Positions 1-2,921 of a DNA stretch of 23,750 bases are shown here, piece after piece. The notes beneath the pieces were generated by a model. It searched no databases and was not told the origin of the DNA. It saw only the letters and a list, made by a program, of their open reading frames with translations. Location of the stretch: positions 1-23,750 of IMG/VR virus record IMGVR_UViG_3300026094_000037, one strand, 5' to 3'. The stretch comes from a virus. Every line of letters begins with the position of its first letter. Position 1 is the stretch's first letter. Both the position numbers and the translations under genes were made by a program.

Positions 1-320
1 CTAATCCTCAAGATTTTGATCTGAGTGCTAATCCTAGAATTCTTATATTGGAGTCAATTGGAGATGTTATAAACACGGACGGCGCCGATGCATGGAAGAA
101 TCAAGACGGATCAGACTTTGTTGCTGGTGCCAACGATATCATAGAATGGACAGGCACAGAATGGCAGGTTGTGTTTGATTCTAGTGACTCGGATTCCACA
201 GTAACACCAGTTTACACTACAAATCTAAACACAGGTGTTCAGTATAAATTTGCTGGCTCAGAATGGCTGTTGTCCTTTGAAGGCGAGTATCCGACCGGCA
301 CTTGGCGTATTGAGTTTTAA
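1..320 (+). CDS. 3' end of a phage structural protein (possibly gp14-like neck protein)
   Basis: The frame is open from the left edge and ends at TAA 318-320, so this is the C-terminal part, about 105 residues, of a gene that starts outside the window. The TTG at 48 is internal, because sense codons continue upstream of it (ending LSANPRILI before it). Visible motifs are WKNQDGSDF, ANDIIEWTG and a closing SEWLLSFEGEYPTGTWRIEF. The Trp/Gly/Asp-rich pattern of 'IEWxGxxW' and 'GxYxxGxWRI' resembles the end of conserved proteins of marine T4-like phages, and from memory a neck protein of the gp14 kind is the best guess. That assignment is weak, since only the tail of the protein is visible. It is the only structural-type gene on the plus strand here, and it converges on the 700-residue fibre gene with a 3-bp overlap of stop codons. 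Confidence 0.6.
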   Translation, partial: NPQDFDLSANPRILILESIGDVINTDGADAWKNQDGSDFVAGANDIIEWTGTEWQVVFDSSDSDSTVTPVYTTNLNTGVQYKFAGSEWLLSFEGEYPTGTWRIEF

Positions 321-2419
321 ATTACGCTTAGTCTCTTCACAGTAATTGTGCCATTCATGCCAGAGTGTAATTGGCACTGATACTGATAATTGCCAGATAG
401 ACTTTCTTGAATTCTCCAGTATAGTGTTCCAGAATCAAATCCCTGTGCTGACGATCCTGTACTGACAGAGCCTGTAGCGCTGACATGCACCAGTCCAGAA
501 GATATAGCAGTTCCTCCAGAATCCTGTATTTCGAAAGGATGACCGCCTATTTGATCGAGGTCAAACGCTATCGTAGTGCCCGAAAGTGCATAGATAGTAG
601 GATTGTCTCCGGAGTAATGCGAGTCAAATGTATATGCACTTGCTCCGTTGTTGTTAACTCTTAAAGTAACAATAGCAGCCTCAAATATGTCATTGACGTC
701 AATGCCTGCATTACTGACGTCTGTGAGTTCGTCAAAGTTTGCGGCACCGCCTGCTGTTCCTGTGTAACTTATAGTAAGTGTATCACCAGATACAGAGGTT
801 GTGATATCTGTACCGCCGGACACAGTTAGTGTGTCTGTGGTAGTATCTGCTGTGGTAGATCCCGAGTCTGCGGACACAGTTTCAAAAACATTCTGATCAG
901 GGTCGCCTCCTCCGCCAGTCACTGCTTGCCAGCTTAACTGTCCAGCACCGTCTGTGGTTAACACTTCTCCGTCTGCGCCGTCTGCTTGCGGCCAATTTTG
1001 ATTGTCAAGAATTATGCTGCCTGTTCCAGCTGTAATAGAAATATCATCTACTGCTGTAAGTGATATTGAAGAGTCGCTGTCTAGCGCAAGTGTTCCTGTA
1101 CCAGTTGAAGAAAGTGTAGTAAACGACACTGCTCCTTGAAAGTCTACGTCCGGTGCGACTGTGATTTCGGCACCGCCTGCGGTGTCAAGTGTGGTGCCTG
1201 TGAATTCAAAATCTCCCAACTGCGGCGGTGTATAACTAAAAACTCCAGTAGTATCGTTGTAAATTAAACCAGCAGTGCCGGCAGCTTCTACTGTAACACT
1301 GAAATCTGTTAGACTTGCAGCACCTATCCCAGTAGCGGTAGGAGGAGTATATTGAAACAGCCCTGTAGTATTATCATATGCAAGTGCACCGTTACCGCTA
1401 GGAGTACCTTCGTTGTCTATATCAAGGGCATCTAGTGTAATTACCGCAGGAGTGTTGGTAAAATTGTTGTAATTTAGATAATAGCTGCTGTCAAATCCGT
1501 CGAGAGTATCAGCATCGAGTCCTGCGCCTCCTTCTGCTATGTCTGTTCCGGGAGCCCACTTTGCACCGTCCCATTTTAGAACTTCGCCTGTGCTAGGAGG
1601 ATTTGATTGGGTGTCAACATCAGACAGAAAGTTTATGGAAAAACTATCGAGGTTGATAGTCACTGCATCGGAGTCTGTCACAACCTCCGTTGATATATTT
1701 TCTCCGCCTAAGAAGGTTAATGTTGACACACTGCTAGGGTTGAAAGAACCACTATCTGTGTTAATCAGTTCAAACGATGAACCACCGCCAGTCGCTGGAT
1801 CTACAAATGAAAACGCACCTGCTCCGTCTGTGGCTAATACCTGTCCGTTTGTACCGTCCGCGATTCCAAAGTCTAATATGCTAACAGGTGTGTTATCTAA
1901 ATCTGCATATGAGTTTGAGTATGCTGTTTCACCAAGAGGAGATACATAACCCGCAGCTTCGACGTCAGAGTGGAAAATGTCGGTTAGCAGTTTGCGCCAT
2001 TCGCCTGCGTGAGCATAGTAAAGAGCACCTGTTTCATGCACATGCATTATCATGCCGTGATAGACACCAGCATCATAGTTTATTAGGTCTGATTCTAGTT
2101 GTATTGCGTTTGCATATTTTATTATGTTATTGCCAAAATCGTAGGTGCCTTCTACCCACTGAAGCTCATCGCCTTCGTCTGGTTGATAGAAGACGTTTGT
2201 AAGCACTCCGGCTGTTTGCAGTATAGAATCAAATGCTGTGAGGTCTACATTTTCAAGGTTTGCTTTTGCTGTTTCTTGGCCTCCTATAGTGCTTCCGTCA
2301 TAGACTCTAATGGTGCCTGTGTCCGAGTTTACGTAGATTTCACCTGATGAACCTGCAATTCTATCAAGGAATTGTTGATTTCTTGGTATAATTCGGATAT
2401 TTTTAAATAGTTCGCTCAT
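317..2419 (-). CDS. Tail-fibre-like structural protein with C-terminal cupredoxin-like domain
   Basis: This 700-residue protein starts at ATG 2419, preceded by a weak ACGGA ribosome site and by AATAAATA 22 bases upstream. Residues 1-45 hold a module (IRIIPRNQQFLDR, then GEIYVNSDTGTIRVYDG) seen at the N-termini of marine phage structural proteins. The middle is low-complexity fibre sequence: two copies of 'VLxTDGAGxxSF/W' (about 195 and 486), the tail-fibre motif LDADTLDGFDSSYYL (301-315), and a near-duplicate NTTGLFQYTPP / DTTGVFSYTPP (350-399). Residues about 605-700 look like a small blue-copper (cupredoxin) fold: GGHPFEI with His627, then Cys682-x2-His685-x2-Met688 in QCQLHSGMNG. The ligand set and the C-x2-H-x2-M spacing match the amicyanin type. 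A role as a tail fibre or baseplate-attached virion protein is inferred. It is the last gene of the minus-strand cluster. Confidence 0.8.
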   Translation of the reverse strand: MSELFKNIRIIPRNQQFLDRIAGSSGEIYVNSDTGTIRVYDGSTIGGQETAKANLENVDLTAFDSILQTAGVLTNVFYQPDEGDELQWVEGTYDFGNNIIKYANAIQLESDLINYDAGVYHGMIMHVHETGALYYAHAGEWRKLLTDIFHSDVEAAGYVSPLGETAYSNSYADLDNTPVSILDFGIADGTNGQVLATDGAGAFSFVDPATGGGSSFELINTDSGSFNPSSVSTLTFLGGENISTEVVTDSDAVTINLDSFSINFLSDVDTQSNPPSTGEVLKWDGAKWAPGTDIAEGGAGLDADTLDGFDSSYYLNYNNFTNTPAVITLDALDIDNEGTPSGNGALAYDNTTGLFQYTPPTATGIGAASLTDFSVTVEAAGTAGLIYNDTTGVFSYTPPQLGDFEFTGTTLDTAGGAEITVAPDVDFQGAVSFTTLSSTGTGTLALDSDSSISLTAVDDISITAGTGSIILDNQNWPQADGADGEVLTTDGAGQLSWQAVTGGGGDPDQNVFETVSADSGSTTADTTTDTLTVSGGTDITTSVSGDTLTISYTGTAGGAANFDELTDVSNAGIDVNDIFEAAIVTLRVNNNGASAYTFDSHYSGDNPTIYALSGTTIAFDLDQIGGHPFEIQDSGGTAISSGLVHVSATGSVSTGSSAQGFDSGTLYWRIQESLSGNYQYQCQLHSGMNGTITVKRLSVI

Positions 2420-2440: not shown

Positions 2441-2448
2441 TATTTATT
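2441..2448 (-). promoter_or_regulatory. T4-like late promoter motif (AATAAATA)
   Basis: The minus strand reads AATAAATA 22 bases before the ATG of the 700-residue fibre gene, the same spacing as the motif before the 2341-residue gene. The plus strand of the same region reads GATAAAGTATTT, a poorer match that might serve the divergent Nudix gene. Confidence 0.5.
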
Positions 2449-2495
2449 TGATTCGAATTGATTTATCAGCTGAGAAATTGCAAATAAGTATTAGC

Positions 2496-2921
2496 ATGAG
2501 TCATATCTGTTCAGGCGCACTTTTTTTTGCTCGAGACACTAAAAGATTCCTGTTTCTACACAGGACGCAGAGCAAGCGATCTCGAGTTTGGGGTATTGTG
2601 GGAGGGAATAATGAATCAGGGGAAACTGCTTGGCAGGCCTGTGAGCGTGAAATTTTCGAAGAAGTTGGCGAAGTTTTGATACAAAAAACAATACCTCTAG
2701 AAACTTTTGTTTCTCATACTAATAATTTTGTATTTCATACATATCTCTGCATTGTGAAACAGGAGTTTATTCCTGTGTTAAACCATGAACATGATGGATA
2801 TGCGTGGGTAGCTTATTCAGCATGGCCTCGGCCGTTGCATTATGGTGTTAAAAATACACTGAATAAAAAAGTAAATCAAAAAAAATTAAAGACTGCGCAA
2901 TTAATTGTTACGATTATATAG
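2496..2921 (+). CDS. Nudix family hydrolase
   Basis: Nudix enzymes hydrolyse nucleoside diphosphates linked to another group. The 141-residue product has the box at residues 37-59: G37-x5-E43-x7-R51-E52-I-x-E55-E56-x-G58. All metal-binding glutamates are present. The last, usually hydrophobic, position is Glu59, a small deviation. The N-terminus MSHICSGALFFA begins the first strand of the fold, so ATG 2496 is preferred over the in-frame TTG at 2448, which would add 16 unrelated-looking residues. No clear ribosome site precedes either. The substrate cannot be read from the sequence; small Nudix proteins of this type occur in marine T4-like phages. The gene is alone on the plus strand between minus-strand genes, in AT-rich flanks, which suggests a separately acquired and separately expressed moron-like gene. 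It converges on the Cys-rich small ORF at 2957. Confidence 0.88.
   Translation: MSHICSGALFFARDTKRFLFLHRTQSKRSRVWGIVGGNNESGETAWQACEREIFEEVGEVLIQKTIPLETFVSHTNNFVFHTYLCIVKQEFIPVLNHEHDGYAWVAYSAWPRPLHYGVKNTLNKKVNQKKLKTAQLIVTII

Follow-up and report, generated by a model that had tools for sequence, protein, structure and literature searches.

A predicted cupredoxin domain with a putative type-1 copper site at the C-terminus of a phage tail protein

The C-terminal 124 residues of a 700-aa tail protein, encoded in a virus record of 23,750 bases (the whole of this stretch is called the window below), are predicted to adopt a cupredoxin fold, i.e., a Greek-key beta-sandwich, in which four residues stand at the places of type-1 copper ligands. 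The reading favored here, with a confidence somewhat above even, is that of a cupredoxin domain binding one copper ion in a type-1-like site, within a tail or baseplate protein family of marine T4-like phages. Taken by itself, the binding of copper by this site in the virion is considered likely, and the fold, together with the retention of the four ligand residues in related viruses, points to possible copper in these virions. A blue-copper site that is intact in tail proteins would amount to a metal cofactor of virions, with a bearing on the stabilization and aiming of marine phage tails and possibly on marine trace-metal chemistry. The prediction is open to test in cultured phages: the domain, ligands included, is present in S-SSM5, P-SSM4, Syn10, P-SSM2, and others. 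T4-like cyanophages have been treated in the literature (PMC2984593); among the open-access papers listed, none was found to describe a phage-tail cupredoxin, and databases may already label such domains as cupredoxin.

Predicted fold and relation to copper proteins

The initial annotation had assigned type-1 copper ligands to the last 100 residues of a fibre protein, and had proposed a cupredoxin fold with the C-x2-H-x2-M spacing of amicyanin. Translation of the open reading frame confirms His627, Cys682, His685, and Met688 (Table 1); the domain itself begins ahead of the range given, at about residue 577. The fold is borne out by structure prediction: residues 577-700 (P0002) were modeled by AlphaFold2 from 73 aligned sequences with a pLDDT of 96.6 and a pTM of 0.90. 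A Foldseek search of the PDB with this model returned 125 matches at E <=0.001, the best 50 of which all have the cupredoxin fold, with middling TM-scores of 0.44-0.61 by query length. Rusticyanin is the best match (E 3.3e-5), and the matches listed further comprise laccases and other multicopper oxidases, nitrite reductases, amicyanin, AcoP, plastocyanin, purple cupredoxin, and pseudoazurin. Similarly, VIA-align placed the nitrite reductase NirK (3wi9) first, with Z 11.8 and an rmsd of 2.3 over 111 aligned residues, and of 999 chains, 237 scored Z >=8. The model places the first His directly ahead of strand 53-56 and the Cys at the end of strand 100-106, and the loop leading into strand 113-119 contains the second His and the Met (P0002 numbering); the same placing of ligands relative to strands characterizes the cupredoxin arrangement. 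Rusticyanin, AcoP, and the cupredoxin domains of NirK, which are cellular respiratory proteins, thus share the fold, whereas their identity to the window domain is about 10-22% in structural alignments. Two giant-virus proteins in BFVD also resemble the domain, namely the "Blue type 1 copper protein" of Fadolivirus and a beta-sandwich protein of Pithovirus (A0A7D3QVK4 and A0A481Z6J5).

In Pfam, the single domain gives weak scores. The Pfam families PF00127 (Copper-bind, 16 vs 21.2 bits) and PF13473 (Cupredoxin_1, 18.9 vs 27 bits) score below their curated cut-offs; PF00127 reaches E 0.017 against the domain alone in hmmscan, and a profile search with it over the window as a genome gave no match. 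A P-SSM2 relative scores 21.0 against the Copper-bind cut-off of 21.2 bits, and 48 of the 73 family members match Copper-bind at E <=1 (best 0.0016), with Bys1 matched by 19 and DUF4352 by 18. Profile A2, comprising these 73 rows (of which 72 share >=50% identity with P0002 and the other shares 26%), gave E values of 0.014 and above for its best PDB sequences, which include nitrite reductase, amicyanin, plastocyanin, and rusticyanin. The wider profile A3, whose rows were pre-selected for C..H..[MQ], a choice that raises the match scores of the C-H-M part and not of the first His, reached nitrite reductase NirK (9cck) at E 6.4e-6 and its best amicyanin at E 1.8e-4. In the alignment of A3 with amicyanin 2gb2 (E 3.1e-4), all four residues are paired with copper-ligand positions, His627 standing opposite the His of AMGHNVHF and the C-x2-H-x2-M opposite its counterpart, so that the amicyanin spacing noticed earlier is upheld; in the best match, 9cck, the C-H-M part alone is paired, and the residue aligned with the first position is Asp. 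On these alignments, the putative site is the type-1 copper ligand set of His, Cys, His, and Met at homologous positions, and a meeting of their side chains at one point would agree with the predicted fold and this pairing.

Amicyanin of Paracoccus, a soluble electron carrier, offers the closest parallel in layout: it has the four ligands in the same order, the C-x2-H-x2-M spacing, and, near the C-terminus, a ligand loop that leads into the final strand. In contrast, its chain measures about 105 aa, whereas the window domain ends a 700-aa tail protein and has a step of 55 positions from the first His to the Cys.

Table 1. Position of the tail-protein gene, its domain and predicted ligands, and other features of the window
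Feature	Position	Strand	Basis or remark
Tail-protein gene, 700 aa (P0001)	317-2419	-	ORF translation, PHROG matches
Cupredoxin-fold domain, residues 577-700 (P0002), predicted	320-691	-	AlphaFold2, Foldseek, VIA
PHROG 677-like part, residues 478-695	335-988	-	PHROG 677 positions 191-409 of 412
His627 in GGHPFEI, predicted copper ligand 1	539-541	-	Invariant in A2 and A3; aligned with His of amicyanin 2gb2
Cys682 in CQLHSGM, predicted copper ligand 2	374-376	-	Conservation, amicyanin alignment
His685 in CQLHSGM, predicted copper ligand 3	365-367	-	Conservation, amicyanin alignment
Met688 in CQLHSGM, predicted axial copper ligand 4	356-358	-	Conservation, amicyanin alignment
Tyr680, two residues ahead of Cys (YxC)	380-382	-	Invariant in A2; 96% in the 164-domain set
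HVH motif, residues 126-128 of the tail protein	2036-2044	-	Within YHGMIMHVHETGALYYAHAGEW
Convergent incomplete ORF	3-320	+	Stop codon overlaps that of the tail gene at 317-320
Nudix hydrolase gene	2448-2921	+	PF00293, E 3.4e-15
Glycine-rich protein, 303 aa	3649-4560	-	
Fibre protein, 1832 aa	12956-18454	-	Six CBM_5_12 carbohydrate-binding stretches
Baseplate wedge-like protein, 1241 aa	19227-22952	-	Inserted concanavalin A-like (Laminin_G_3) domain

Conservation of the predicted ligands and degenerate copies

The only invariant residues of A2 are P31, T40, H51 (His627), W92, Y104, C106, H109, and M112 in P0002 numbering. Among 111 distinct homologous domains, the window's own counted, C..H..M is present in every one, and the first ligand is followed by Pro in 110, the remaining one being His-Ala. 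Iterated profile searching, for which no motif was required, gave 307 rows (303 at E <=0.001) and from these 164 distinct domains; with gapped cells excluded (5 at the first His and 2 each at Cys, second His, and Met), the filled cells hold His in 159/159, Cys in 162/162, and His in 162/162, and the axial position holds Met in 155 and Gln in 7 of 162. All four ligand columns are in the top five of the domain for conservation. The domain outside the site is no better conserved than the site, which points to selection for the metal itself. At each His and at the Cys, both synonymous codons occur among 156 distinct DNA sequences; it is therefore the residue itself that is kept. These counts are to be read with the sampling of the viral scans, which took the best 80 of 144, 117, and 390 relatives with some search patterns that held part of the motif, so that intact copies are favored.

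Cys682 is the sole cysteine of the 700-aa protein. Likewise, exactly one Cys occurs in 68 of the 86 C-type frames (>=480 aa, none contained in another), and in all 68 it is that of C..H..M. Given the length and composition of the protein, C-x2-H-x2-M is expected by chance 7e-5 times, and C-x2-H-x2-[MQ] is absent from the other 10 minus-strand window ORFs that were scanned; the motif is therefore more than a chance occurrence.

This pattern has to be weighed against the view that the cupredoxin fold is a metal-free beta-sandwich module that serves only for adhesion or as a joint, with the ligand residues kept for the sake of the fold or an interface. Such a view is unlikely, though not negligible. 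In its favor, the large cyanophage protein adjoining gp9 retains degenerate copies in which the Cys is lost (residues 541-682 of the 1386-aa frame L155 from S-SSM5, and more weakly 555-664 of L232 and 563-652 of L233), so the scaffold is usable without the site; SufI, a metal-free cupredoxin fold, is moreover among the VIA matches. It is opposed by the rank of the four ligand columns given above, by the protein's single Cys occupying a ligand position, and by the sole axial variant, Gln, being itself a ligand, known as the alternative axial residue of stellacyanin. Further cupredoxin-like matches, some of them partial or degenerate, occur in L155, L242, and cyanophage frames of 4,000-7,300 aa, structural proteins of very large size.

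The Gln forms, whose axial position holds Gln and not Met (CHFHxxQ), are paralogues encoded near C-type genes (L081, L103, L104, and L116, with cut copies in L040, L063, and L065). On a tree of 92 domains that included 4 of the 7 Gln rows, a single Met-to-Gln change is found, and the substitution accordingly counts once. The resulting His-Cys-His-Gln set is like that of a stellacyanin-type phytocyanin, a plant extracellular protein. A model of the Gln-type domain attained a pLDDT of 92.1; its Foldseek matches are weak, with none at E <=0.001 and Ig-like adhesins first, and VIA lists cupredoxins first but only at Z 5 to 6. The same two axial residues bear on a reading in which another soft metal (zinc, mercury, silver, or nickel) is bound in nature, or the Cys acts as a redox switch. 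Cupredoxin sites do accept other metals in vitro; nevertheless, the ligands retained are those of type-1 copper, the fourth being Met or Gln, and this speaks against the reading, which is held to be the least probable of all those considered.

A second branch of the family comprises 29 rows, 19 of which lie at residues 68-90 of their frames, and is split off with 99% SH-aLRT in a tree built from few columns, some of whose branches are long. The two proteins of the latter kind that were scanned both match a baseplate wedge PHROG at that place. The Gln form modeled above belongs to this branch.

Tail context and proposed role

The tail protein matches PHROG 677 (baseplate wedge tail fiber protein connector) at E 2.1e-50 and PHROG 9729 (tail fiber protein) at E 7.5e-11. 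The former match covers the C-terminal half of the profile, which represents cyanophage gp9, and does not extend over the whole of it. In S-SSM5 and P-SSM4, gp9 carries the N-terminal domain of T4 gp9/10 (PF07880, E 7.2e-9 and 4.6e-12, respectively) and ends in the same cupredoxin domain with the four ligands; by contrast, PF07880 (T4_gp9_10_N) was not found in the window protein, which gave three Pfam matches up to E 10, and the likeness is that of the C-terminal half. Because gp9 is annotated as a connector of baseplate and fibre, the sequence comparison makes a position of the domain at the joint as likely as one at the tip.

In the proposed mechanism, the C-terminal 124 residues would form a cupredoxin whose type-1-like His-Cys-His-Met site holds one copper ion, obtained from the host or the surrounding medium; the metal would pin the C-terminal loop and the partner-facing surface, and the domain would then act as a rigid docking module joining the fibre to the baseplate, or the fibre to the host. 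Such a metal-pinned docking domain is regarded as the most likely role, with electron transfer and copper-dependent adsorption as lesser possibilities.

A phage-borne metabolic gene for plastocyanin (petE) was considered and rejected, since the domain forms the C-terminal end of a 700-aa tail protein, whose gene is adjoined by tail genes. The Nudix hydrolase gene, directly upstream of the tail-gene start on the opposite strand, stands between the tail gene and a series of minus-strand tail genes, which encode the 1241-aa baseplate wedge-like protein, the 1832-aa protein, a tail fibre protein of 2341 aa, and smaller proteins. T4-like phages have glycine-rich adhesins, which the 303-aa glycine-rich protein (no Pfam or PHROG match at E 0.01) brings to mind; by this resemblance, it may be the real receptor-binding tip. 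No RNA families (at gathering score) or tRNAs were detected in the window.

The tail protein further contains the HVH motif within YHGMIMHVHETGALYYAHAGEW, and the HVH form of this stretch is present in 22 of the 86 related frames. In T4 gp37 and marine phage fibres, iron is placed at HxH sites (PMC11705849). Since HxH is the motif proposed there for iron binding, the protein may by analogy hold a second metal site at HVH beside the cupredoxin site. The likeness lies in a transition metal within a phage fibre, which for the window protein is predicted; the difference lies in Fe at His pairs as opposed to a four-ligand cupredoxin site.

Distribution, hosts, and possible alternative roles of copper

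By tblastn, the window domain was found in 274 of 50,697 phage records, 269 of which are named Synechococcus, Prochlorococcus, or Cyanophage; the gp9 form was found in 349, of which 341 bear these names. In a scan of 16 phage records with A3, for which the cyanophages and a lake phage had been picked from the tblastn matches, each of the 8 cyanophages gave 3 to 5 matches, some of them partial, whereas the SAR11 phage Mosig and the lake actinobacterial phage gave one each, and T4, Phosso, PA5oct, Vibrio phage 2.275.O, and HTVC008M gave none. The initial suggestion that the same ending recurs in other marine phage structural proteins is supported by these tblastn and profile matches.

The abundance of copies in cyanophages, whose hosts use plastocyanin, lends some credit to a redox-active blue-copper electron carrier on the virion, which would sense or use the redox state of the host surface, for example as a trigger of tail contraction or DNA release, and the domain does keep every ligand of the type-1 site found in electron-transfer proteins. 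Such an electron-carrier role is nonetheless the less likely one and is given a slim chance: no partner outside the cell is known, and a link to photosynthesis is not general. The latter point follows from five larger contigs bearing the family, all of which carry a T4-type gp23 and in none of which psbA was detected (the records may be fragments), and from the gp23 of two of them (G001 and G003), the two tested, whose nearest relatives are in phages of proteobacteria, namely Sinorhizobium phage Phosso (72.9% and 71.5% identity, respectively) and Vibrio phage 2.275.O. From the same evidence, the domain is probably not solely a cyanophage trait but a module common to phages of different hosts; a cyanophage origin of the window itself is unsupported. 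A search for gp23 in 8 records of 12-47 kb with close relatives gave no match, the controls being likewise blank, and no near match to the window was found among phages. As for a cellular source, genome contigs scanned with A1 yielded 53 pattern stretches and no tblastn relative, the patterns being short and the scan weak.

The concentration in marine cyanophages, to which the domain is almost confined among annotated phages, also counts in favor of the notion that copper is bound for recognition by a host copper-uptake receptor, as a copper version of the iron Trojan horse. Its chance is slimmer still than that of the electron carrier, as copper in a cupredoxin is largely buried and no such receptor is known to us. 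Iron-binding HxH in marine phage fibres has been proposed to act in this manner, and the sole mention of copper in the accessible part of the same source concerns a microscopy grid (PMC11705849).

More broadly, copper could be a working virion cofactor in many marine T4-like phages and be needed for host attachment or entry; type-1 sites would then sit on the tails and baseplates of phages infecting cyanobacteria and other bacteria, and their binding or redox state would matter. This wider reading, in both its parts, is fairly doubtful; if true, abundant virions would be copper-binding ligands in seawater. Beyond the matches given above, the A3 scan met a marginal one (E 0.009) in a 137-aa frame of phage CBB (W03), at 303930-304190.
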